A DNA stretch of 34,777 nt, from contig MGEK01000026.1 in assembly GCA_001791325.1 (NCBI GenBank), positions 1 through 34,777 on the forward strand, read 5' to 3'. Below the pieces are notes generated by a model. It saw only the letters and a list, made by a program, of their open reading frames with translations, searched no databases and was not told the origin of the DNA. The translations under genes and the position numbers were made by a program. Source of the stretch: Candidatus Uhrbacteria bacterium RIFCSPLOWO2_01_FULL_47_25 (GTDB lineage Bacteria > Patescibacteriota > Patescibacteriia > GWA2-46-9). Shown piece by piece: positions 3,477 to 34,600 of this stretch (positions are counted from its first letter, which is position 1; each line of letters opens with the position of its first letter).

Positions 3477-4439
3477 ATGGCAAAGTACAGTTCGTTGACA
3501 AAGGGACAAGATGAGGCGCTCGTCAATCGTTTGGGCGACGCCTTCGGCGGCGACGGTCTCGCAGCCGTGCACGCCATCTTGGCTGGTGCCAAGGTGACGA
3601 TCGAAGAGATCATCGCGACCTTCTTCGACAAGCATGGTCGGCGTATCCCGCCCCGCGGCATCAAAGCTGCGGTCTGCGACGCGAACTACAAGTTCCACCT
3701 GGTCCAGCCGGAGACCGTCGACTACGCCGCTCGGATCGAGCGCGTGATTGACGCCTTTGAGGGCAAGGTGGCATTCCCGGAAGCGGCCTGGTTTGAGGAT
3801 GCAATCGGCGGTCTCAAGATGAAGATTGAGGGCGATTCCAAGATCGTCAATGCTTTGAAGGGCATCCATCTCCCGAATGTCGTTCCGCAAATGGTCATCA
3901 CCAACCACGGCCAGACCTTGGACGAGGTGCTCCTTGTCGCTCTTGGCCGCTCCTACCAGAAGGAGTTCCCGGAGGGCCGTCCCTTCAATAACTACTGCAA
4001 GGGCGAATTGGTCAACCAGGTCAGGGTTCTCTCCGAGAGCCGTCTCGATCTCTTGGTCGAGCGGGCGAAGCAGGGACCGGTTCCGATACTCGAGTTCCCG
4101 ACCGCGACTCAGGGGTTCTCGGTCGACGCTCAGCGCGAGCAGATGGAAACGATGCTGGAGGGGTTCATCCTCAACGGTTTCAACGCCGTGCTCGCCATGA
4201 TCATGTGGCCCGATGTCTTGGCTCGGGATTTCAACACCCCAGTGATCGACCTTTCCGCCTATCAGCGGCAGTCGGCCGAGTACTCGCTCTGCCTGCGCCC
4301 GCGCGGCGCCCTCCGCTTCGGCTACAGGGCGAACCTCGCGGATGCGAACGACAACTACTCAGGAGGGGTGTCCTTCGTCGGATTGTGTCTACTTTGTAGC
4401 TGCCCAGGAGTTTTTCCAGAAGGGAAAACTCCTGGCTAA
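3477..4439 (+). CDS. Putative DGR variable (target) protein
   Basis: The start follows a clear AGGAGG (3466-3471) five bases upstream. The N-terminal ~240 residues are soluble, mixed alpha/beta and not recognised. The C-terminal part, from DLSAYQRQSAEYSLCLRPRG to ANDNYSGGVSFVG, has the look of a DGR variable region: many Tyr, Arg, Asn and Ser positions, consecutive AAC/GAC/AAC/TAC codons, then a Gly-Gly-hydrophobic ending. The final ~15 residues are encoded partly by a perfect hairpin and may be an extension past the normal end. The gene is much richer in G and C than its neighbours, with CTC/CGC/GTC codons favoured, which suggests transfer. It converges on, and overlaps by 3 nt, the Avd-like gene. 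I found no template repeat in the window, so the target role is inferred from neighbours and composition. Confidence 0.6.
   Translation: MAKYSSLTKGQDEALVNRLGDAFGGDGLAAVHAILAGAKVTIEEIIATFFDKHGRRIPPRGIKAAVCDANYKFHLVQPETVDYAARIERVIDAFEGKVAFPEAAWFEDAIGGLKMKIEGDSKIVNALKGIHLPNVVPQMVITNHGQTLDEVLLVALGRSYQKEFPEGRPFNNYCKGELVNQVRVLSESRLDLLVERAKQGPVPILEFPTATQGFSVDAQREQMETMLEGFILNGFNAVLAMIMWPDVLARDFNTPVIDLSAYQRQSAEYSLCLRPRGALRFGYRANLADANDNYSGGVSFVGLCLLCSCPGVFPEGKTPG
4404..4435. repeat. Perfect 11-bp hairpin at the end of the putative variable region
   Basis: CCAGGAGTTTT (4404-4414) pairs perfectly with AAAACTCCTGG (4425-4435) around a 10-nt loop. Known DGR targets often have a hairpin/cruciform just past the variable repeat that promotes retrohoming; position and orientation fit. 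The U-run is inside the stem rather than after it, so it is not a standard intrinsic terminator. Confidence 0.6.
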
Positions 4440-4801
4440 GCTTTTGCAGCTTCGGCGAGCGATCGCTGCCATCCGCCGATCATGCGTCCGATTTCTCGAA
4501 TCTGTGTTTGTAGAACGATGTACTTTTTGGCATCAATTGCGCCAATTTCTCGGGAGAGACGCAGGAGGACTTTAAGCGTGTCGAACTTGACGTTGGCTTG
4601 ACGAAGTAGCGCGAGTTTTTCTGACTGCGGAACGCTACTTGCCGCTAGCATAAACTCGAGCGTTCCTATGATGTAGTGCTCGCATTTGGCTCCAAGCGTG
4701 TACTTATCTTTCTTGGGGAAGAGGAGCGAGTATCCATAGAATGTTTTGTAGAGGTCGTAGAGTTTTTGGACAATCGGTATTTCTTTATCGTTATTGTTTG
4801 T

Positions 4802-4816
<15 letters not shown>
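4436..4816 (-). CDS. avd: Avd-like four-helix bundle protein of a DGR
   Basis: The predicted product (126 aa) runs from MDTPHTNNNDKEIPIVQKLYD to GGWQRSLAEAAKA. The EIPIVQKLYDLYK start, the LGAKCEHYIIGTLEFMLAA helix, the LLRQANVKFDTLKVLLRLSREIGAI helix and the YIVLQTQIREIGRMIGGW ending are the pattern of Avd / 23S-intervening-sequence four-helix proteins. In DGRs such a protein binds the RT and is needed for mutagenic retrohoming. The length matches Bordetella phage Avd (about 128). The ORF track extends upstream to 5062, but that part lies antisense inside the RT. The gene is inverted relative to the RT: its ATG and the RT's ATG overlap head to head by 15 bp. The stop overlaps the target gene's stop on the other strand. 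Confidence 0.75.
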
Positions 4817-5882
<1,066 letters not shown>

Positions 5883-17899: not shown

Positions 17900-18481
17900 A
17901 TGCCCTTATTTAGCTCTCCCAAACACATCCCCACTAGCCGCATCTGTCCTCTGCAGTATCGCAAGATTTGGAAAAAGCTTTTGGTATTGGAAATATCACC
18001 TAGCCCGCAAAGCCAAAAGATGTGGCGTTCAATTTTTGTGAGCTTGCTTTCATTGGCAGGCTTGTATATTGTTTTGGGATTGGCCACATCGTCAGTTAAG
18101 CCACTTGACTGGTCGGTATTTTTGGCGCCGATCATCGGGTTATTCTCAATTATTATATTCCTGTTGATTTTTTATCAATGGCTTTATATCTGGACTTATT
18201 TTTACGATGTTGATGAGTCCTTTTTAAAAATTCGCAAAGGCGTTATCATTCGCCGTGAAATCACTATCCCTTACAACCGCATTCAGGATGTGTATTTAGA
18301 TCAGGATATTATGGACCATTTGTTTCATCTTTATGATCTTTATATTTCCACGGCCACACCGACTTCTATTATTGAATCTCACATAGATGGCCTAAATAGT
18401 CATAACGCCCAAAAAATTCGTGATCTTATTTTAGCCAAGGTGACGGCTGCTAATGTAGCTACCCCCAATGGCGGGGTCTAA
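17900..18481 (+). CDS. Bacterial PH-domain (bPH2/YdbS-like) membrane protein
   Basis: Two membrane helices (IFVSLLSLAGLYIVLGLAT and VFLAPIIGLFSIIIFLLIFYQWLYIWTYF) precede a bPH2 domain. The domain is recognised by YFYDVDESFLKIRKGVIIRREITIPYNRIQDVYLDQDIMDHLFHLYDLYISTAT, the YdbS/YdbT signature in which the R-I-Q-D strand and an LG(L)Y helix are conserved. The protein would sit in the cytoplasmic membrane with the PH domain on one face. Family members are poorly understood. It ends with ANVATPNGGV. Expression probably starts from the promoter within the preceding inverted repeat. Confidence 0.85.
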   Translation: MPLFSSPKHIPTSRICPLQYRKIWKKLLVLEISPSPQSQKMWRSIFVSLLSLAGLYIVLGLATSSVKPLDWSVFLAPIIGLFSIIIFLLIFYQWLYIWTYFYDVDESFLKIRKGVIIRREITIPYNRIQDVYLDQDIMDHLFHLYDLYISTATPTSIIESHIDGLNSHNAQKIRDLILAKVTAANVATPNGGV

Positions 18482-18489
18482 ATAAGCCC

Positions 18490-18518
18490 TTGACAGCCTT
18501 TTGGCAGGTTGTTATTGT
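18490..18518 (+). promoter_or_regulatory. Distal rpoBC promoter, TTGACA-17-TATTGT
   Basis: A perfect -35 TTGACA (18490-18495) and TATTGT (18513-18518) are spaced 17 bases. It begins a leader of over 400 nt to rpoB. The 484-bp spacer 18482-18965 holds this promoter, a possible attenuator, an inverted-repeat element, a second promoter and competing hairpins. Confidence 0.55.
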
Positions 18519-18550
18519 ATATATACTTTAAGTCCGCAATTACAAAATTT

Positions 18551-18667
18551 AGCTTAGTTAAGCTATTTTTGCTTTTTTAGCTCACATGTTCGGTAGCGGG
18601 CTAACCCGCGACAAGTTCACATAATGATGAAATACTCTTCCCAAGAAAGGGGAGGGGGTATTTTTTG
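18551..18667 (+). terminator. Possible attenuator region in rpoB leader
   Basis: Three hairpins lie in order: AGCTTA-gt-TAAGCT (18551-18564), GCGGG-ctaa-CCCGC (18596-18609) and AATACTCTTCCC-(6 nt)-GGGGAGGGGGTATT (18631-18662, with G-U pairs and a mismatch). TTTTT follows the last. The last has the form of an intrinsic terminator between promoter and gene. Confidence 0.4.
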
Positions 18668-18670
18668 TTT

Positions 18671-18796
18671 ATCCCGTTAGAAAACTTTATTGTTTCATAT
18701 CGCGCCGGATAACCATGTATGTCATTTTTTAGTATGTCATTTCTTGGCATAGCAGAGACAGAGAAAAAGTAAGGGTTCGCCATTTTCTAACGGGAT
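18671..18796. repeat. Inverted-repeat element with CCCGTTAGAA core in the rpoB leader
   Basis: ATCCCGTTAGAAAA (18671-18684) and TTTTCTAACGGGAT (18783-18796) are perfect 14-bp inverted repeats bounding 126 bp. Size and core match the element at 12285-12404; the interior differs. Confidence 0.85.
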
Positions 18797-18810
18797 TTAC
18801 CACGGTCAGT

Positions 18811-18839
18811 TTGAAAAAATAAAAAGTTTCAAATATTCA
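18811..18839 (+). promoter_or_regulatory. Proximal rpoBC promoter, TTGAAA-17-TATTCA
   Basis: TTGAAA (18811-18816) and TATTCA (18834-18839) are 17 bases apart, just after the inverted-repeat element. It would give a leader of about 120 nt. Confidence 0.4.
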
Positions 18840-18876
18840 TTCACTTTTTAACTATTTTAAATAATTTAACCGCATG

Positions 18877-18925
18877 ACCGTCGCTGGAACTATTCAACAT
18901 ATATTACGACGGTTGCCAAGCAACC
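18877..18925 (+). promoter_or_regulatory. Mutually exclusive hairpins upstream of rpoB
   Basis: ACCGTCG (18877-18883) pairs with CGACGGT (18907-18913). GGTTGC (18911-18916) pairs with GCAACC (18920-18925). The two stems share GGT, so only one can form. They lie about 40 nt before the rpoB start. Confidence 0.4.
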
Positions 18926-18965
18926 AAACGGCGAAGCCTTTTCCAAAATTGATTGCGTAATTTTT

Positions 18966-21900
18966 ATGGCCCAAACAAGAACTTTTTTTACCAAAGTTCA
19001 TGAGGCGGCGCCGTTGCCAGACCTCATAGCTATCCAGAAACAGTCCTATGATTGGTTTCTTAGAGAAGGCTTGAAAGAATTATGTGACGAAATTTCTCCA
19101 ATTAAAGATTTTACGGGCCGCGATCTTGAGCTGTACTTTACGGATTATTATTTAGATGAGCCGAAGTTTGACGAAGTGACTAGTAAAGCCAAGAATGTTA
19201 CTTATGAGTCGCCCTTACGAGTAAACGCAAAATTAGTAAACCGCCGCACCGGAGAGATGAAAGAGCAAGAAATTTATCTTGGCGATTTTCCACTAATGAC
19301 TCCACGTGGCACTTTCGTGGTGAACGGTATTGAACGCGTGGTTGTTTCGCAGGTGATTAGATCAGCCGGAGTTTTCTTTACTTCGGACACTTGGCGTGGC
19401 CATCGTTATTATGGAGCCAAAATCATCCCTAACCGTGGCGCTTGGTTAGAGATGGAAACCGATCCGAGCGGCGTCATTTGGGTGAAGATAGATCGTAAAC
19501 GCAAAGTGGTGGTGACATCTCTATTGCGTGCTTTTGGGTACGGCTCTGATGATCAATTGGGAACTCTTTTTAGTGATGATATCTATAAGATGAATTTGGA
19601 GGCAACTCTCCAAAAAGACACAGCCAAAAATGAGGCGGAAGGTGTGCTGGAGGTTTACAAACGCGTTCGCCCCGGCGATTTAGCCACTACTGATAATGCC
19701 CGCAGTCTTATCCATTCAATGTTCTTTCGCTTTGATCGTTATGATTTTGGACGAGTCGGTCGTTACAAACTTAATCAGCGCTTTGGCTTTGACTTACCGA
19801 ATAACAAGGAAACAAGGGTTCTGCGTCCAGAAGATTTAGTGAGCATTATTAAGGAAGTAATGCGTCTTAATGTTACTCAGGAAGAAGCTGATGATATTGA
19901 CCATTTAGGGAATCGTCGTATTCGTGCCATCGGCGAACTTATTCAAAACCGTTTTCGGATTGGTCTTACGCGCATGGAAAGAATAGTCAAAGACCGTATG
20001 AGCACGGCGGAGATCTCCACCTTAACACCCAACCGATTAATTAATGCCCGACCAGTGATTGGCGCGATTAAAGAATTCTTCATGTCCTCGCAGTTATCAC
20101 AGTTTATGGATCAGACGAATCCTTTGGCCGAATTGGAACATAAACGTCGTCTTTCGGCCATGGGGCCGGGCGGGCTTTCTCGCGAGCGTGCCGGATTTGA
20201 AGTGCGTGACGTGCATCCCACTCATTACGGTCGCATTTGTCCTATTGCCACTCCGGAAGGACCAAACATTGGGTTGGTTGGCCACTTGGCTTGCTATGCA
20301 AAAGTGAACGATTACGGTTTTATTGAGACGCCATTTAGGCGGGTTCTTCATGACGTACCCAATAATCCTAAACACACGGTTGGCGAAATATTGCGCCAAA
20401 ATATTACCAACCAAGATAATGGCAAAGTAGTGGCTGAAGCAGGTGTTAAGATTACTCGCGAATTAGCGCAAGAGCTTTCTAAATTATCTGATACAAAATC
20501 CATTCCGATAAAACCGCGAGTGACGAATGAGGTAGTTTATCTGGACGCGTTTACGGAGGAGCGTCACGTCACCACTGCCGCGACCACGCCGCTGGATGCT
20601 AATGGCTATTTTATGGAAGAGAAAGCTGAAGTGCGTGCTCATGGCGAGCCGTCCGTTGATAATGTTGAAACGATTGATTTTATGGATGTGTCGCCCAAGC
20701 AAATAGTTAGCATTAGCACTGCTCTCATCCCTTTTTTAGAGCACGATGATGCGATTCGTGCCCTCATGGGAACAAATATGCAGCGTCAAGCCGTTTCCTT
20801 GATTAATCCTCAGTCACCGGTTGTCGGTACCGGCGTGGAAGCAAAAGCCGCTTTGGATTCTGGGCATTTGATTGTGGCTGATGATGACGGAGAAATTGCG
20901 GAAGTAGATGGTAAGCATATAGTACTTTTAAGCGCCAGCGGTCAGCGATATGTCTATGAGTTTTCCAAATTCGTCCGTTCCAATGCTTCTACTTGTATCA
21001 ATCAACGTCCCATTGTCAGCAAAGGCCAGCAAGTCATTAAAGGTGAAACCTTAGCTGATGGGCCGTCCACTGACCATGGTGAGCTGGCTTTGGGTCAGAA
21101 TATTACCGTCGCCTTTATGGCTTGGGAGGGGTATAATTATGAAGATGCTATTATAATTTCCGAGCGGCTAGTGCATGATGATCGTTATACCTCTATACAC
21201 ATTGAGGATTATATTGTTGATATTCGCGATACCAAACTCGGCCCGGAAGTAATTACTTCTGATATTCCTAACATCGGAGAGGAGAAATTGAAAGATTTGG
21301 ACGCAGAAGGAATTGTGTGCATTGGCGCAGAGGTTTCTTCGGGCGACATTTTGGTTGGGAAAATTACGCCCAAAGGCGAAACCGAACTTTCTGCTGAGGA
21401 AAAATTACTGCGCGCGATTTTTGGCGATAAGGCTAAAGATGTGCGCGACAGCTCGTTGTATCTTGAACATGGCGAACACGGTAAGGTCGTTGACGTTAAA
21501 ATTTTTTCGCGTGAAGTGGGGGATAAATTACCAGCCGGAGTAATTAAGTCGGTGCAGGTGACGGTAGCTAATCTGCGCAAGATTCAGGTTGGTGATAAAA
21601 TGGCTGGTCGTCACGGCAATAAGGGTGTCATTTCCAAAATTGTGCCCGTTGAAGATATGCCGTTTTTGGAAGACGGTACGCCAGTTGACATTATTCTTTC
21701 CCCTCTTGGCGTGGTGTCTCGCATGAATCTTGGACAGGTTCTGGAAACTCATCTTGGCTTTGCCGCTCGCTCTCTTGGCTATAATGTAGCTTCGCCGGCC
21801 CTTGATGGAGTGCCAGAAACAATAATTCAACGAGAATTGGAGCGCGCCCACCTGCCGATTGATGGTCAGGTTACCTTATATAATGGTCGCACCGGAGAAC

Positions 21901-22361
21901 CTTTTGATAATCCAATAACCGTTGGCTGTATTTATATGCTTAAATTGAATCACATGGTTGAGGATAAAATTCACCAGCGATCCATTGGGCCATATTCTCT
22001 CATTACCCAACAGCCCTTGGGTGGTAAGGCGCAATTTGGCGGTCAGCGGTTTGGCGAAATGGAGGTGTGGGCGCTGGAGGGTTATGGCGCGGCACACACC
22101 TTGCAGGAGATTTTGACTATTAAGTCGGATGATGTGCCGGGGCGCTCTAAGGCGTATGAAGCCATTATTAAGGGAGAAGCAATACGCAAGATGAATGTAC
22201 CGGAATCGTTTAATGTTTTAGTTCGTGAGTTGAAAGGGCTTTGCCTTGACGTAGAGTTGCTTGATGAATCAGGAAACATTATGCGCGAGCAAGTGACAGC
22301 TGAATTAGCGTCGTCAACAGGCGCCGTATCGGTTAATAATAATGAAAAAACGCTAGTATGA
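18966..22361 (+). CDS. rpoB: RNA polymerase beta subunit
   Basis: This is the beta subunit of the core RNA polymerase. Conserved landmarks are [14 protein letters not shown] at the start and the rifampicin-binding region [30 protein letters not shown]. The positions equivalent to E. coli Asp516, His526 and Ser531 are unchanged. Others are [61 protein letters not shown] and the C-terminal [33 protein letters not shown]. Length (1131) is compact, without the large E. coli insertions. There is no Shine-Dalgarno before the ATG. It overlaps rpoC by 4 nt, implying coupled translation. No rplJL genes lie upstream, unlike the common bacterial order. Confidence 0.98.
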
Positions 22362-25300
22362 TTATGCCGGAACCATCACGTCCAACTGATTTTGTTTCCA
22401 TTCGGTTGAAGCTAGCATCGCCTGAAGCGGTGCGGCGTTGGTCCTATGGTGAAGTAACGAAGCCCGAGACAGTGAACTATCGTACGCAAAAACCAGAAAA
22501 AGAGGGTTTGTTCTCAGAGAGGATTTTTGGACCGTCCAAAGATTGGGAGTGTTACTGCGGTAAGTATAAGAAAATTCGTTATAAGGGGATTGTTTGCGAT
22601 AAGTGCGGTGTGGAAGTTACACGTTCCATCGTGCGCCGCGAGCGTATGGGGCATATTGATTTGAAAGCGCCGGTGTCGCATATTTGGTTTTTACGCGGCG
22701 TGCCTTCCAAGATCGGGCTTCTTCTTGATCTGTCTGTCCAGAATTTAGAAAAAGTTATTTACTTTGCCAATTTCATAATTACCCACGTAGATGAGGATCT
22801 ACGGGCGGCAACCTTGGAGCAGGTCAAGCAGGAGTATTCTATGAAACGCAAAGCCATTGACGCAGAATACCATCGTGAGCTTAAGGCTATGGGTGAAGGT
22901 GCGCCAGAAGGACGGCGAGCCTCATTGGGGAAAATTCGTGACACCCGTTTGAAGGAACTGGAAGAAGCTTTTATGGTTGCGACGCGCGAACTTAAAGAAC
23001 TTCGGCCGTTAAGAATCATTGCGGAAAGCGCTTATCATGATTTGTCTTTGAAATATGGCCATGTGTTTGAGGCAGCCATTGGCGCCGAAGCTATTTATGA
23101 ACTGCTAAAAAAATTTAATTTATCAACCGAAGTGGCCAAGCTTGAGCGTGAGCTTAATGAATTAAGCGGGGCGCGCGCCGAGAAAATTGTTCGTCGCTTG
23201 AAGCTGATTAAAAGCTTGGAGCATAATCATTTACGCCCCGAGTGGATGATTATTACTGTTTTGCCCGTGATTCCACCCGATCTCCGACCGATGGTGCCAC
23301 TGGACGGAGGGCGTTTTGCCACCTCGGATCTTAATGATTTATATCGGCGCGTCATTAATCGCAATAATCGTTTAAAGCAACTTATTGAACTAAACGCGCC
23401 GGAAGTTATAACCCGCAATGAAAAGAGAATGTTGCAGGAGGCGGTTGATGCTCTGATAGACAATAGCGCTCGTCACGGCAAGACCGTGGTTGCTTCAACC
23501 GGCCAGAAGCGCATGCTGAAATCTTTAGCCGATATGCTGAAAGGCAAACAAGGACGGTTCCGCCAGAATTTACTTGGCAAACGCGTGGATTACTCTGGGC
23601 GCAGTGTTATCGTCGTGGGACCAACATTGAAAATGCATCAGTGCGGTCTGCCTAAACGCATGGCTCTTGAACTTTTTCGTCCGTTTGTTATCTCCCAGCT
23701 CATTAAACGCGAGTTTGTGCATAATGTTAGAAGCGCTAATCGTTTTATTGAGAGCGGTCGCGCGGAAGTTTGGGATATCTTGGAGGAAATTACCAAAGAT
23801 GCGTATGTGCTTTTGAATCGCGCTCCAACCTTGCACCGTCTTGGGATTCAGGCATTTCAACCGATTTTAGTTGAGGGCAAAGCTATTCAGCTTCACCCCT
23901 TGGTTTGTCCGGCCTTTAATGCTGACTTTGACGGCGACCAGATGGCCGTTCATGTTCCTTTAACCGAGGAAGCCAAAATGGAAGCCAAGGAAATCATGCT
24001 TTCCAGTAAGAACCTCCTGAAGCCGGCGCATGGCGAACCGGTGGCCACACCCACCCAAGACATCGTTTGGGGTTTATATTATCTGACTTCTCTTGAACCA
24101 AACGCCGTCGGCCCTCTAAAAACATTTGCCAATGTCAATGAGGCTTCGGCCGCGTATGATCATGGGATTACTTCTCTAAAACAAATGATTAAAGTGCGTC
24201 TTGACGACGGCAGTATTATTGAAACGACAGTAGGGCGTTTACGTTTTAATGAAGTTCTGCCCGCTAGCTTGCGCTATTGCAATAAGGCGATGGATAAAAA
24301 AAGTCTGGGGGCGCTTGTTAAACGATCATTAATTATTGAAGGCGTAGAGCGTACGGCCGTATTGCTGGATGATTTAAAGGAGCTTGGTTTCAAGTCGTTA
24401 ACACAATCTGGTTTGTCCTGGGGAATGAAAGACTTGCCTCATCTGGCCGATAAACCAGAGATGGTTGAGGCAACAATTCGTCAAGTTGAAGAAGTTGAGC
24501 AACAGTATGCCGAAGGTCTTCTAACCAAAGACGAAAGGCACAGTCAGATAGTGCAATTGTGGACGGCTGTTAAAGATCGCATTGTTGCTTTATCTAAGAA
24601 GTCATTGCCGCGCGAGGGTTCGGTTTTTACCATGATTGAGTCCGGGGCGCGTGGTTCTTGGGGGCAATTAACGCAGATTGTGGGGATGAAGGGATTAGTT
24701 ACCAATCCGGCTGGCGATATTATTGAATTGCCGGTGAAAGCCAGTTTTAAAGAAGGTTTTGATGTTTTGGAATATTTTATTTCTACCCACGGCGCTCGCA
24801 AAGGACTATCTGATACCGCCCTAAGAACAGCCAATGCCGGTTATCTTACCCGGCGGTTGGTTGATGTGGCTCAAGATGTTATCGTGCAGGCCGAGGATTG
24901 TGGTGACGAGGAAGGACTAGAAATCACTCAGACTGAATCTGGCTCAATGGGTGAATCTTTGGAGAATCGGGTGGTTGGACGGTTTAGCAACCAAAAAGTA
25001 ATAGATCCCAAAACTCGTAAGGTTATTGTGAAGTCTGGTGAGCTCATTACGCCGAACCACGTAGAGTTATTTAAACCATTGGACTTGCCTTCTTTAGTGA
25101 TTCGTTCCGTGTTAACTTGCAGTTTAAAAAAAGGGGTGTGCCAAAAATGTTATGGTATTGATTTGGGGTATAACCGGTTGGTTGAAATAGGCACGGCCGT
25201 TGGTATTATTGCTGCTCAATCTATTGGCGAACCCGGCACGCAACTTACTATGAGAACCTTTCACACCGGCGGCGTCGCCAGCGAAGAAGATATTACTCAA

Positions 25301-26077
25301 GGTTTGCCGCGAGTTGAGGAGTTATTTGAGGCCAGGCCGCCTAAACGTGCGGCGCTGATGGCTGACGTGGCTGGGGTAGTTTCCATACATGAGGTTAATA
25401 ATCACGAACACAATCCTGGCAGTAGCCGAGCGACGCGCATCCAACGGGTCATTAAAATTACGGCCGCCGAACCAATCAACAGGAAGGGGCGTGGCCGAGG
25501 AAAAGGAAAGATCAAAACGACTGACACAAATGTTCGTGAATTTGTAGTGCCGCCCGGTTATGCGTTTTTGGTTAAAGACGGTGAGCCCGTTGCCGTCGGC
25601 GATCAACTGACCGATGGAGCTTTTGACTTGCAGCAGCTAGTGCGGTTGCGCGGACGCTTAGAGGCCCAGCGTTATATTATTAAGGAGATACAATACATTT
25701 ATTCTTCGCAAGGGCAAAGACTAAACGACAAGCATATTGAAATTATCTGCCGTCAGATGTTCTCGCGCGCTTATGTCAGAGATGGCGGAGACACCAATCT
25801 TTTGCCGGGCGAGATTGTGGAACGCTCAGTGGTGGCTGAAGCTAACGCGACTGTCGTGGGTAAGCCGGCGGAGACGGAAGACTTGCTTCTTGGAATGACT
25901 AAAGCCGCTTTGTCTACCAAGAGTTTTCTGGCCGCCGCTTCATTCCAGGAGACGGCTCGGGTTTTGATTAATGCGGCAATTACTGGACGAATAGACACTT
26001 TAGATGGCTTAAAGGAAAATGTAATTATTGGGCGTTTGATACCGGCCGGCACAGGCTATCACCGTAGTGCTGACTAA
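22358..26077 (+). CDS. rpoC: RNA polymerase beta-prime subunit
   Basis: This is the catalytic beta-prime subunit. The active-site motif [12 protein letters not shown] (around residue 520) is intact. The N-terminal zinc site ([20 protein letters not shown]), the DNA-entry Cys cluster ([24 protein letters not shown]), the bridge/trigger region ([42 protein letters not shown]) and the C-terminal [15 protein letters not shown] are visible. Length (1239) is usual for short beta-prime forms. Its ATG overlaps the rpoB stop (ATGA); ATG 22364 is an alternative start. A lysine/arginine-rich stretch [13 protein letters not shown] interrupts the C-terminal part (about residue 1045). Confidence 0.98.
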
Positions 26078-30965: not shown

Positions 30966-31622
30966 ATGGTACTCACGAGCGATCAAGTAGCCGTTCTTGA
31001 GGCGGTTGGGCGAAACGCGCACCTTGTCAAGCGGTTTTATCTCACTGGCGGTACGCCGCTCGCCGCTTTCTATCTTCATCATCGTTACTCCGAAGATCTA
31101 GACTTTTTTTCGGAGAGAGAAGTTGATATTGCGCCCCTCAACATTTTTTTTCATGAGCTTAAAAAGCCGCTTGGCATTATTTCACTTGATTTTCAGCAGA
31201 GCTACGATCGCAATTTGTTTTTTCTCCATCTTCCAAGCGGCGTTCTCAAAACAGAATTCACCTATTTCCCGTTTTTGAGAATAGAGAAGGGCCGGCCACA
31301 GTATGGCGTTGAGGTTGATAGTCCGCTTGATATCGCGGTGAATAAGCTGTTTACGATTTATCAGCGCACTAAAGCTCGTGACTACATTGATTTGTATTAC
31401 CTCTGTCAGAAGCAAGGATTCAGCGTTGCCGACTTGGTGGGGAAAGCACGAATTAAATTTGATACGACAATTGATCCACTGCAACTCGGGACGCAATTTG
31501 TCAAAGTCGGAGAAGCGCTGGATTTGCCGAGAATGCTTATTGATCTTGCGCCAGACTTATGGCAGAAATTTTTTATTGAGGAAGCAAAAAAACTTAAGCC
31601 GATTATTATTGACAATAGTTAA
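30966..31622 (+). CDS. AbiEii/AbiGii-family nucleotidyltransferase toxin 1
   Basis: The fold is the minimal nucleotidyltransferase. YLTGGTPLAAFYLHHRYSEDLDFFS holds the GG(T) motif and the Asp-x-Asp metal site (residues ~28-46), followed by the KTEFTYFPF strand that usually carries the third Asp/Glu, and SPLDIAVNKLFTIYQRTKARDYIDLYYL, the family-typical C-terminal signature. Such toxins (AbiEii, MenT type) transfer nucleotides, for some onto tRNA, and protect against phage. The frame is complete at 218 residues. It is operonic with the 64-aa partner. Confidence 0.85.
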   Translation: MVLTSDQVAVLEAVGRNAHLVKRFYLTGGTPLAAFYLHHRYSEDLDFFSEREVDIAPLNIFFHELKKPLGIISLDFQQSYDRNLFFLHLPSGVLKTEFTYFPFLRIEKGRPQYGVEVDSPLDIAVNKLFTIYQRTKARDYIDLYYLCQKQGFSVADLVGKARIKFDTTIDPLQLGTQFVKVGEALDLPRMLIDLAPDLWQKFFIEEAKKLKPIIIDNS

Positions 31623-31663
31623 TCTCTCTATTTTTTCTATGATTTTTTTGATAAATTTTAAAT

Positions 31664-31891
31664 ATGAAATTCAGACAAGCATTATTTTGGGACACTGATC
31701 CAAAAAGAATTGACGTTAAAAAAAACGCGCAATACATTATTGAGCGCGTGGCTGATTTTGGTCGCGATAAAGAAGCGCGTTGGGTTTTGGAGCATTATGA
31801 TAAAGCGCTGTTGCGGAGGGTAATTTCCAAATCAAGGTGTTTGCGTCCGCGCACAAAAAATTTATGGCTCTTACTTCTGAAAAACAAGTGA
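31664..31891 (+). CDS. Putative antitoxin partner of AbiEii-type toxin 2 (75 aa)
   Basis: MKFRQALFWDTDPKRIDVKKNAQYIIERVADFGRDKEARWVLEHYDKALLRRVISKSRCLRPRTKNLWLLLL has the FWDTDPxxIDxxKN...IIERVxDFG signature of a small family found beside nucleotidyltransferase genes in CPR and related bacteria (recalled, not searched). It overlaps the next gene start (31864) by 28 nt, a strong sign of translational coupling. It is unrelated in sequence to the partner at 30770, so the two modules are independent. Confidence 0.7.
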   Translation: MKFRQALFWDTDPKRIDVKKNAQYIIERVADFGRDKEARWVLEHYDKALLRRVISKSRCLRPRTKNLWLLLLKNK

Positions 31892-32557
31892 AACAGACGA
31901 AGTTGTATTTTGACATTTTGTCATCCGAGGCCAGAAGGGCGTTGGATTATTTGTCTTTAAAAAAATGGCTTAGGGAATCAAGGTGGTATTTGGCCGGCGG
32001 AACAGCCCTGGCGCTTCAGGCGAGGAATCGTCAATCAATTGATTTAGATTTTTTCACAGAGGATAAGGAATTCAATGTAAAAAAATTGATTGCTCGTTTT
32101 GTCGGCGAAGAAGGTTGGCACGTCAGCGTAGAGGAAAATAATACCATTTACGGAGAATTATTCAAAGTAAAAGTGAGTTTTATCGCCTATCCATTTTTTG
32201 TTCCTAAGCAAAAGCCAATATTTTACGGCGCTATTCGTATTTTGTCGCCGCTTGATATCGCAGTCATGAAAATTATCGCCGTGTCCCAGCGTGGCAGGAA
32301 GCGAGATTTTTTTGATCTTTTTTGATCTTTATTGGTGCGCGCATAATCTTGAATCATTGGAGAAAACTATCAAACGGCTCAAGGTGCAGTACCCGACAGT
32401 CGCCCACAATTATCATCATATTCTAAAAGCGTTGGTTTATTTTGCTGACACGGAAAGCGACCCTGAACCAATAATATATTTTGACGCCACTTGGAAAAAA
32501 GTAAAAAGTTTTTTTACCAAAGAAATCCCAGTCATTGCGGATAAGGTAATGAGATAA
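31864..32557 (+). pseudogene. AbiEii-type nucleotidyltransferase toxin 2, frameshifted by a 10-bp tandem duplication
   Basis: Starting at ATG 31864 (MALTSEKQVKQTKLYFDILSSEARRALDYL), the N-terminal half has the motif YLAGGTALALQARNRQSIDLDFFTE and the later SPLDIAVMKIIAVSQRGRKRDFFDLF, then a stop at 32325. The frame resumes as DLYWCAHNLESLEKTIKRLKVQ...EIPVIADKVMR to 32557. TTTGATCTTT is repeated exactly (32311-32330); removing one copy gives RDFFDLYWCAH, the expected ending. Nothing else is damaged. The toxin is therefore off in this sequence, either lost recently or reversibly switched. The ORF track starts at 31837, but the upstream ten residues have no support. Confidence 0.85.
32311..32330 (+). 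repeat. 10-bp tandem duplication TTTGATCTTT x2 in toxin 2
   Basis: The exact direct repeat shifts the toxin frame by +1 and creates an early stop two codons later. Loss of one unit would restore the frame. Confidence 0.95.
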
Positions 32558-32588
32558 AGAGGCTTTAAGACATAAGCCGTAAGCATGG

Positions 32589-32604
32589 CCCCGCTTGCGC
32601 GGGG
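32589..32604 (+). terminator. Hairpin after toxin 2
   Basis: CCCCGC-ttgc-GCGGGG is a strong stem 32 bp past the toxin frame. The following TTGATTGTTGATT is only weakly U-rich, so termination is plausible but not textbook. The 414-bp spacer 32558-32971 holds this hairpin, the palindrome element and a candidate promoter. Confidence 0.5.
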
Positions 32605-32611
32605 TTGATTG

Positions 32612-32649
32612 TTGATTACTTTCTTTGTGCGGGCAAAGAAAGTAATCAA
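32612..32649. repeat. Perfect 16-bp inverted repeat, head of a REP-like intergenic element
   Basis: TTGATTACTTTCTTTG-tgcggg-CAAAGAAAGTAATCAA is perfect. It leads into a GC-rich stretch (32650-32870: CCGCCCTTCGCTGCC, TGCAAACTCACCTCGCACGG...) that looks like the AAAGAAAGTAAC-type repeats I recall from proteobacterial spacers. The ORFs predicted across it are not convincing. Confidence 0.6.
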
Positions 32650-32898
32650 ACCGCCCTTCGCTGCCTACTTAGTTAAAGCTTCGCAGGTCAAGAAAGCTTC
32701 GGCGTGGCGCAGGAATGACACCCTCGGAGTCGGCGTCGGGAACAGTCGCTCTCTTTGGGGCGGCAGGTGCAAACTCACCTCGCACGGCTCGGTTCAGACA
32801 TGCACCCGCTTGTCCGCCTCACTTCGCTTGCAGTTCCACGACACCGCTCCCATGGATTTAATTGTTGTTGTCACGCTACGCATCTCCGATGTTTAATC

Positions 32899-32926
32899 TT
32901 GACGGAATGGTCGGGGGGGGTAAGAT
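32899..32926 (+). promoter_or_regulatory. Promoter with G8 tract in its spacer
   Basis: TTGACG (32899-32904) and TAAGAT (32921-32926) are 16 bases apart, and the spacer contains eight consecutive G (32913-32920). It lies 45 bp before the 146-aa gene. Slippage in the G run would alter the -35/-10 spacing. Confidence 0.45.
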
Positions 32927-32971
32927 ATGAGCAAGAAAATACATACTTATTCATTTTTAATTAATTAAAAT

Positions 32972-33412
32972 ATGCCAAGAGATATTGGAGGACCAACTCC
33001 GGAGGAGATGGGAATAAAAACAGACTCCGCTGATATTAATTTAAAAATGCTTGATGACGAAGCACTAATTTTACGAAAACAAAAGGCGGAAAAATATAAT
33101 GATACAATTAGACAGTTTACTCCAAAAGAAAAAGAGTGTTTTGAAAGAGAACTTGAATTGGAAAAAATTCATGAAGCTCTCCAGTATCTTAAAACAGCGG
33201 CGGAGATAACCAAGGATACCGGATTGAGTAAAGCATTAAATACTGTAGATCGCTCAGTAGATGTATTGTTGAATGATGCCTTGAAGATTCGGCATGAGGC
33301 CATGGGAGAACAGCGAAGTACAGAAATTGGTAATTTCGTTTATGAATATTTCACCGATTCTGATTCCCCATACGCGATGCAGCTAGAGAAAGAAGCCAAA
33401 TCTCAGTCATGA
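32972..33412 (+). CDS. Hypothetical helical protein (146 aa)
   Basis: The protein begins MPRDIGGPTPEEMGIKTDSAD and is mostly charged alpha-helix (MLDDEALILRKQKAEKYNDTIRQFTPKEKECFERELELEKIHEALQYLKTAAEI). It then has KALNTVDRSVDVLLNDALKIRHEAMGEQRSTEIGNFVYEYF. No membrane helix, signal or catalytic motif is seen. Its opening resembles small proteins scattered in CPR accessory regions, but I cannot name a family. The upstream promoter with a G8 spacer may make its expression variable. Confidence 0.65.
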   Translation: MPRDIGGPTPEEMGIKTDSADINLKMLDDEALILRKQKAEKYNDTIRQFTPKEKECFERELELEKIHEALQYLKTAAEITKDTGLSKALNTVDRSVDVLLNDALKIRHEAMGEQRSTEIGNFVYEYFTDSDSPYAMQLEKEAKSQS

Positions 33413-33635
33413 TCATAATTACACAGACGTCTTATTGATGTGACTGTTAATCGTTTGCTTGGACGATTAGGGGCGTGTTTGAAATGCTGGTTGGCGCCCT
33501 TATTTAGCGATGAGATTGACGTCGCCCGATTGGGTATCGCGCAATATCCCCGGTGCTGCTTCTGAGGCAGATCTTTTTCCTTTCTTGTGTAACAAAGAAA
33601 GCGGGAAAACTGTTTTTCATTAATCGAATTCAAGA

Positions 33636-33660
33636 AGTCCCAATAATTAGGGCTTTTTTG
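33636..33660 (+). terminator. Intrinsic terminator in the spacer 33413-33721
   Basis: AGtCCC-aataatta-GGGCT is followed by TTTTTT: a short stem with one bulge and a good U-run. The rest of this 309-bp spacer has a CTTTCTT...AAGAAAG inverted repeat (33582-33602) and no convincing gene. Confidence 0.55.
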
Positions 33661-33665
33661 ATGGT

Positions 33666-33694
33666 TTGACGAGATGTTACACTGGTGTTACACT
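33666..33694 (+). promoter_or_regulatory. RHH/RelE operon promoter and direct-repeat operator
   Basis: TTGACG (33666-33671) and TACACT (33689-33694) are spaced 17 bases. TGTTACACT occurs at 33675-33683 and 33686-33694, exactly 11 bp (one helical turn) apart, the second covering the -10. Such spacing suits cooperative binding of ribbon-helix-helix dimers, so this is probably the autoregulatory operator. Confidence 0.65.
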
Positions 33695-33721
33695 AGCAGT
33701 ATAGTTTTTAAATTGATTTTT

Positions 33722-33943
33722 ATGCCGACAATAAAGAATAGAATTAATCTTACTGTACCGCGCGATCTTAATTTAGTGCTTAATCGTTTAGCGGTGCGCG
33801 ATGACCGCTCTGTTTCTTCAAAGGCCCTTGAGCTCATTGAACGGGCGCTTGAATTAGAGGAAGACATTGTCTTGCAAAAAGTAGCAGAGGATCGCGACCG
33901 CAAGGGCGTTAAATATATATTGCACAAATCAGCCTGGCGATAA
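33722..33943 (+). CDS. Ribbon-helix-helix antitoxin
   Basis: From ATG 33722, the 73-residue protein MPTIKNRINLTVPRDLNLVLNRLAVRDDRSVSSKALELIERALELEEDIVLQKVAEDRD has the RHH layout: a beta-strand (RINLTVPRDL), helix A (LNLVLNRLAVRD), a turn with Ser-Val-Ser-Ser and helix B (KALELIERALELEED). The C-terminal tail would wrap the toxin. The ORF track starts at 33674, upstream of the true start and inside the operator. It precedes the RelE-like toxin by 6 nt. The tandem TGTTACACT sites just upstream suggest it represses its own operon. Confidence 0.88.
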   Translation: MPTIKNRINLTVPRDLNLVLNRLAVRDDRSVSSKALELIERALELEEDIVLQKVAEDRDRKGVKYILHKSAWR

Positions 33944-33949
33944 CGGATT

Positions 33950-34225
33950 ATGTATACTATCCAGTACCACCCATTGGTGGTACATGATGATATCCCTAAA
34001 CTTGACGCGACGCATAAGCAACGAATTAAACGAAGCATTGAGCAAAGACTTTTGATTGACCCAGAAACATTTGGCATCCCACTTCGTCGCTCGTTGAGAG
34101 GTTACCGCAAGCTTCGTGTGGGCGACTATAGAATTGTGTTTCGTATAGCTGGCAACACGGTTTACATATTAGCCATTATGCACCGGTCAATAGTTTATGA
34201 TCACATGTCTAAGCGGGTCTGGTAA
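33950..34225 (+). CDS. RelE/ParE-family toxin
   Basis: The 91-residue protein MYTIQYHPLVVHDDIPKLDATHKQRIKRSIEQRLLIDPETFGIPLRRSLRGYRKLRVGDYRIVFRIAGNTVYILAIMHRSIVYDHMSKRVW carries the family pattern: an N-terminal strand, helices with a KQRIKRSIEQRL stretch, LRGYRKLRVGDYRIVFRI and VYILAIMHRSIVY. RelE members cut mRNA on the ribosome; the basic Lys/Arg and Tyr residues fit an RNase, but ParE-type gyrase inhibition cannot be excluded. It is preceded closely by its antitoxin and looks intact. Confidence 0.9.
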   Translation: MYTIQYHPLVVHDDIPKLDATHKQRIKRSIEQRLLIDPETFGIPLRRSLRGYRKLRVGDYRIVFRIAGNTVYILAIMHRSIVYDHMSKRVW

Positions 34226-34303
34226 TGAGGACGAGATAAGGATTTTTGTTGTGTGAAACTCATGGCTTTACAGCCGTGGATCTTCACAGTAAACTGGAGG
34301 CAT

Positions 34304-34600
34304 ATGAAGATTGTCGAGATTCGCCGTAAAACTGCGCCGGTGTTTGAGGCCTACAACGTAAAGTTCGCCGGGCTCTTTGGGTCATACGCGCGCGGGAAGC
34401 CGGGCACTAGAAGCGATATTGATATTGCGGTTATTCTCGGTCCCGATGCTGACCTTTTTGATTTTGTTGGTTTAAAATTAGATCTTCGCAAGGTGTTAAA
34501 AAAGCCCGTTGATTTGGTGACATATAGAACGATGTACCCATACGTCAAGCGATCTGCCAAGCGAGGTATGAAGAAACTCTATGGCCAAACGGCTCACTGA
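34304..34600 (+). CDS. MNT-type minimal nucleotidyltransferase
   Basis: From ATG 34304 the 98-residue protein starts MKIVEIRRKTAPVFEAYNVKFAGLFGSYARGKPGTRSDIDIAVILG, which holds the nucleotidyltransferase signature GS-YARG-x(5)-SDIDIAV with the two catalytic Asp. KVLKKPVDLVTYRTM supplies the third acidic residue (VDLV). MNT proteins usually pair with a HEPN toxin, which they modify by AMPylation. No HEPN gene is visible downstream before the window's last gene, so this is an orphan or uses a distant partner. The ORF track's 34253 start adds 17 unsupported residues. Confidence 0.85.
   Translation: MKIVEIRRKTAPVFEAYNVKFAGLFGSYARGKPGTRSDIDIAVILGPDADLFDFVGLKLDLRKVLKKPVDLVTYRTMYPYVKRSAKRGMKKLYGQTAH

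Follow-up and report, generated by a model that had tools for sequence, protein, structure and literature searches.

A promoter and predicted terminator ahead of rpoBC across a class of Patescibacteria, probably forming a premature-termination attenuator

How RNA polymerase levels are set is still incompletely understood even in Escherichia coli (PMC4670729), and the rpoBC locus analyzed here raises this question for the Patescibacteria, a very large and mostly uncultured group of bacteria with small genomes. The locus lies in a stretch of 34,777 nucleotides, hereafter the window, from Candidatus Uhrbacteria bacterium RIFCSPLOWO2_01_FULL_47_25 (contig MGEK01000026.1). Its rpoBC genes are located outside the rplKAJL-rpoBC operon in which the E. 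coli genes reside. As the earlier note on this DNA had stated, rpoB does not follow rplJL; the genes 5′ of it encode, by Pfam match, a Mur ligase and a bPH_2 protein, the latter with an ortholog at the equivalent position in both of the related genomes available. What, then, could control the synthesis of the β and β′ subunits in such a setting?

Comparison within the family and order was based on the window and the two other genomes available, a congener (G002) and a second member of the family (G001). For the class, 144 genomes were searched for rpoB upstream regions, and the leader set also drew on Falkowbacteria, Uhrbacteria, Magasanikbacteria, Buchananbacteria and other contig records.

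Table 1. Features of the rpoBC locus and of a candidate retroelement region in the window (positions count from the first letter of the window)
Feature	Position	Strand	Evidence and remarks
bPH_2 protein gene, upstream neighbor, outside the proposed device	17900..18481	+	Pfam PF03703, E=4e-14
Main promoter, TTGACA-N17-TATTGT with TG before the -10	18490..18518	+	10/12 match; conservation in G002 and G001
Early hairpin UAGCUU-AGUU-AAGCUA with a U-rich stretch 3′ of it	18550..18565	+	In minimum-energy fold
Candidate 12-codon uORF, MFGSGLTRDKFT and stop	18586..18624	+	Stop 10 nt before terminator stem; frame kept in G002
Hairpin GCGGG-CUAA-CCCGC within the uORF	18596..18609	+	One compensatory change relative to G002
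Intrinsic-terminator hairpin AAAUACUCUUCCC-GGGGAGGGGGUAUUUUUU, proposed attenuator	about 18630..18666	+	-12.9 kcal/mol; six U
MITE-like insertion, 126 bp	18671..18796	.	Perfect 14-bp terminal inverted repeats ATCCCGTTAGAAAA/TTTTCTAACGGGAT
Previously proposed second promoter, TTGAAA-N17-TATTCA, not supported	18811..18839	+	8/12 match
rpoB, controlled gene	18966..22361	+	Pfam RNA_pol_Rpb2 domains
rpoC, 4-nt overlap with rpoB	22358..26077	+	Pfam RNA_pol_Rpb1 domains
bAvd-like protein	within 4439-4888	-	PF22296
Reverse transcriptase	4676-5470		PF00078

The perfect TTGACA promoter described in the earlier note is indeed present, beginning only about 9 nt 3′ of the bPH_2 stop codon. It is kept in G002, and its counterpart in G001 reads TTGACA-N17-TACGTT; transcription of rpoBC would start at this strong σ70-type promoter of its own. 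The terminator-like hairpin with a U-run, also correctly described, lies about 140 nt 3′ of the transcription start and 305 nt 5′ of the rpoB ATG. Alignment with G002 shows an invariant terminator stem with an altered loop and, in the hairpin within the uORF, replacement of the closing G-C pair of the window by A-U (GCGGA-CUUU-UCCGC). The two supposedly competing hairpins that share a GGT can be drawn in the window but are absent from both G002 and G001. The 96-nt segment that carries them folds at chance level (z = -0.14 against shuffles), and we reject them. The second promoter is also rejected: its match falls below the scan threshold, leaving it out of the promoter scan list, and it is absent from the congener. 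The early hairpin is not established either, because its stem is weakened in G002.

Between the window and G002, identity amounts to 75% across the promoter-terminator block, with one gap in 179 columns, but past the terminator it is 39% in the inserted element and 55% beyond it. The order promoter, terminator, rpoB is also present in G001, with the terminator 27 nt before the ATG, and the spacer of about 300 nt in the window therefore looks added within the genus. The leader is indeed long, with about 440 nt between the likely start site and the ATG (about 450 nt in the earlier note), but roughly 300 nt of it lie 3′ of the terminator and appear to have been added later. Within this genus, the device would have become separated from rpoB by these 300 nt, of which 126 nt correspond to the MITE-like insertion.

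This insertion, directly 3′ of the terminator, bears out the inverted-repeat element previously noticed. A genome-wide search for its ends, allowing at most one mismatch, gave 33 occurrences versus 2 control hits, mostly paired about 80-130 bp apart, which places the element in a dispersed family; copies elsewhere in the genome have these ends in common, and the interior of the window copy differs. The family, with ends ATCCCGTTAGAAA/TTTCTAACGGGAT, comprises about a dozen other paired copies, most of them 80-130 bp long, and a short TT or AA repeat seems to border its copies. At the equivalent position, G002 also has one end of a related element, close to a stretch of N in the assembly. A RAYT transposase as the mover of the element, and with it a REP/RAYT identity, was rejected, as the window's assembly contains no match to RAYT/Y1_Tnp (PF01797).

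Other loci of the window merit mention. The region 3477-5882 holds a candidate diversity-generating retroelement, in which a bAvd-like protein adjoins a reverse transcriptase. The reading frame of the latter is interrupted at a long TC repeat (about 5358-5390), with an apparent continuation in a different frame up to 5882, and the gene may be a pseudogene or phase-variable, or the assembly may be in error here. No direct repeat of at least 25 nt was found. A cluster at 30966-34600 encodes two AbiEii-like nucleotidyltransferases, a Polbeta-type nucleotidyltransferase and a ParE-like toxin (33950-34225) preceded by a small protein (33674-33943).

The arrangement seen in the window recurs in most leaders of the class. 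A promoter matching at least 10 of 12 positions is found in 113 of 141 class rpoB leaders, with a median distance of 190 nt between the -10 and the ATG. Between this promoter and the ATG, a hairpin (at or below -8 kcal/mol) with a U-run is present in 90 of the 113 leaders, versus 36 of 113 in dinucleotide shuffles, and in 69 versus 21 at a cut-off of -10 kcal/mol; because the leaders are related by descent, these counts are not independent. When 250 nt are considered irrespective of promoters, a hairpin occurs in 84% of rpoB leaders in sense orientation, compared with 44% in antisense and 39% after shuffling. The promoters of ileS and uvrB were detected in only 8/27 and 5/30 cases, making these genes poor controls, and genome samples were therefore substituted: 800 kb of sequence, 220 kb of it from the window's own genome, yielded 373 genes with an upstream gap, 49 of them promoter-bearing. 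Seven of the 49 show the order promoter, terminator, gene, but only 20 have a leader of at least 85 nt (at most 7 of those 20 with a hairpin), so that the excess over background is partly a matter of leader length. The dinucleotide shuffle, which covers leader length, is the firmer control. In a phylum sample, nearly all from outside the class, the hairpin occurs in 11 of 18 promoter-bearing leaders. On the sequence evidence, the promoter and terminator before rpoBC are real, conserved and class-wide; of the elements that the earlier note had combined, the attenuator is thus supported, while the second promoter and the competing hairpins are not.

A nearly invariant stem with a variable loop, CCCGCUAU..GUAGUGGG, was observed in ten rpoB leaders of some families (among them L184, L226, L240, L007 and L237) and is not found in the window leader; it looks like a specific binding site.

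The best explanation of this arrangement, which we consider probable, is a premature-termination attenuator that meters read-through into rpoBC behind a dedicated promoter. Some polymerases would stop at the intrinsic terminator, about 140 nt past the start and before rpoB, and the level of read-through would set β and β′ output. We infer that termination is incomplete in vivo and read-through subject to regulation. The terminator hairpins have little sequence in common between families, and the class-wide retention of a terminator by leaders whose sequences are otherwise so dissimilar suggests selection for metering at this step.

The hairpin could instead be nothing but the terminator of the upstream gene, with a chance promoter match in front of it. 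The window itself would suit this explanation, given that the bPH_2 gene is co-directional and stops just before the promoter, but the same order is found in 16 of 18 leaders whose nearest upstream ORF is divergent, where the hairpin is therefore not the neighbor's terminator. The promoter, moreover, is conserved in three genomes of the family, and we regard this explanation as highly improbable.

In many class leaders, the U-run ends directly at the ATG or 5-6 nt before it. Where it abuts the ATG, a GGAG-like 3′ arm falls at Shine-Dalgarno distance, as would be the case if the hairpin hid the ribosome-binding site and controlled translation rather than ending transcription. At 305 nt (window) and 27 nt (G001) from the ATG, however, the hairpin cannot hide that site, yet both genomes retain hairpin and U-run despite the distance, which makes translational masking distinctly unlikely. 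The same short distances weigh against a separate small-RNA gene of about 140 nt, delimited by the promoter and terminator, with rpoB transcribed from a promoter behind it. The 300 nt or so between terminator and rpoB in the window would have room for another promoter, but a U-run 5-6 nt from the ATG leaves none in many relatives, and the second promoter, with its 8/12 match, is not conserved. Nor do the families have any sequence in common, contrary to what a conserved RNA would show, and searches against the covariance models of Rfam 15 gave no match for the window leader at E <= 1 or for the leaders of 20 relatives at gathering score. We consider such a gene unlikely; a 6S-like separate small RNA was rejected, no structure being conserved between families.

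If a premature-termination attenuator is indeed at work, its read-through must respond to some input. The leader portion before the terminator is structured above chance (mean z -1.39). Pairing between the leader and the 5′ arm of the terminator has a mean z of 0.0 (sem 0.11) over 89 leaders, with z = 0.15 in the window, and pairing with the other arm also stays at the level of shuffles (mean z -0.09, 89 leaders). This lack of enriched antiterminator pairing argues against a riboswitch-type terminator/antiterminator switch, built from RNA alone with mutually exclusive pairing to the terminator arms, as a general mechanism. The likely inputs would therefore be external ones, acting on the polymerase during elongation or on the RNA. 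Candidates would be NusA/NusG, nucleotide supply, the rate of initiation and a ribosome on a short uORF; autoregulation by RNA polymerase is possible as one of several inputs.

The last of these candidates corresponds to a special case of the premature-termination attenuator, in which a ribosome finishing the uORF covers the 5′ arm and the polymerase passes. A ribosome translating the uORF of the window, which ends about 10 nt before the stem, would cover that arm. In G002 the reading frame, start and stop are retained (MSDSGLFRNMGT and stop), with little conservation of the peptide, and G001 has a 12-codon uORF of unrelated sequence (MGFCTFLASDNK and stop) at the same distance from the stem. 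More generally, a uORF stop falls between -25 and +20 nt relative to the stem in 45 of 91 leaders, versus 24 expected. A ranking of mock starts assigns the largest excess among 26 trinucleotides to GTG and ATG, under a shuffle null that is imperfect because the non-start triplets AAG and ATA also exceed it. An ATG is located 6 nt behind the -10, at the expected +1 and hence at the start of a leaderless message, in 10 of 116 leaders, and no antiterminator pairing was found that would render a ribosome unnecessary. Against translational coupling, about half of the leaders are without such a uORF, the peptides are poorly conserved, and among close pairs the frame is kept in some while start or stop is lost in several; the conserved DNA of family f26 also forms a hairpin in the alignment, which could explain its conservation. 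Given the mixed conservation of frame and the poor conservation of peptide, coupling to translation is a candidate rather than a result, and we put it forward tentatively, as a minority possibility. The broader proposition that in Patescibacteria read-through of the rpoBC terminator requires translation of a short ORF in the leader, in many cases a leaderless one, strikes us as doubtful. If true, polymerase output would track translation capacity without a dedicated regulator, tying polymerase supply directly to translation.

One family of leaders (L139, L147, L148, L151, L310 and L311) carries a MHQLFLVFVKHCFCFSK-like uORF that begins near +1 and overlaps a conserved hairpin, UUUUGUGAAACA..UGUUUCUCAAAA.

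Whichever input acts on it, the terminator before rpoBC constitutes a defined, testable site. A literature search for rpoB leaders in Patescibacteria, with most subscription journals outside its coverage, found no paper; the type of device is known from E. coli, and its spread and form in patescibacteria appear undescribed.

Leader-peptide attenuators of the trp and pyrBI type consist of a promoter, a short ORF, a terminator and the structural gene, in an order that could allow a ribosome close to the stem to prevent termination. The leaders analyzed here resemble them in having a short ORF that ends near the terminator stem, but differ in that neither an antiterminator hairpin nor a regulatory codon run was found in them and in that about half of them are without a uORF. 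The L10(L12)4 attenuator of Bacillus subtilis rplJL also acts by transcription attenuation, in an operon that neighbors the polymerase genes in many bacteria (PMC4538822), whereas at the present locus rplJL is absent and the Rfam L10 leader has no match. In cyanobacteria, a structured leader 5′ of rpoBC was predicted as cluster 245 of a 2005 comparative screen, whose authors identified it with the attenuator of E. coli (PMC1242208). It is likened to the present leaders by description, not by sequence, and it is a comparative prediction for which the authors forwent a direct test (PMC1242208). The E. coli rplL-rpoB attenuator itself (Barry 1980, Steward and Linn 1992 and Dykxhoorn 1996, cited in PMC1242208, PMC2659441 and PMC4670729) is, going by these citing accounts, likewise a terminator-like element directly 5′ of rpoBC that decouples it from upstream transcription. 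Control by transcription frequency was proposed for it (Steward and Linn 1992, cited in PMC2659441 and PMC1242208), and according to the same accounts it has been proposed to join autogenous control. The E. coli element, however, lies inside the rplKAJL-rpoBC operon, whereas its patescibacterial counterpart stands behind a dedicated promoter, in many leaders together with a short uORF, and has no ribosomal-protein genes upstream.
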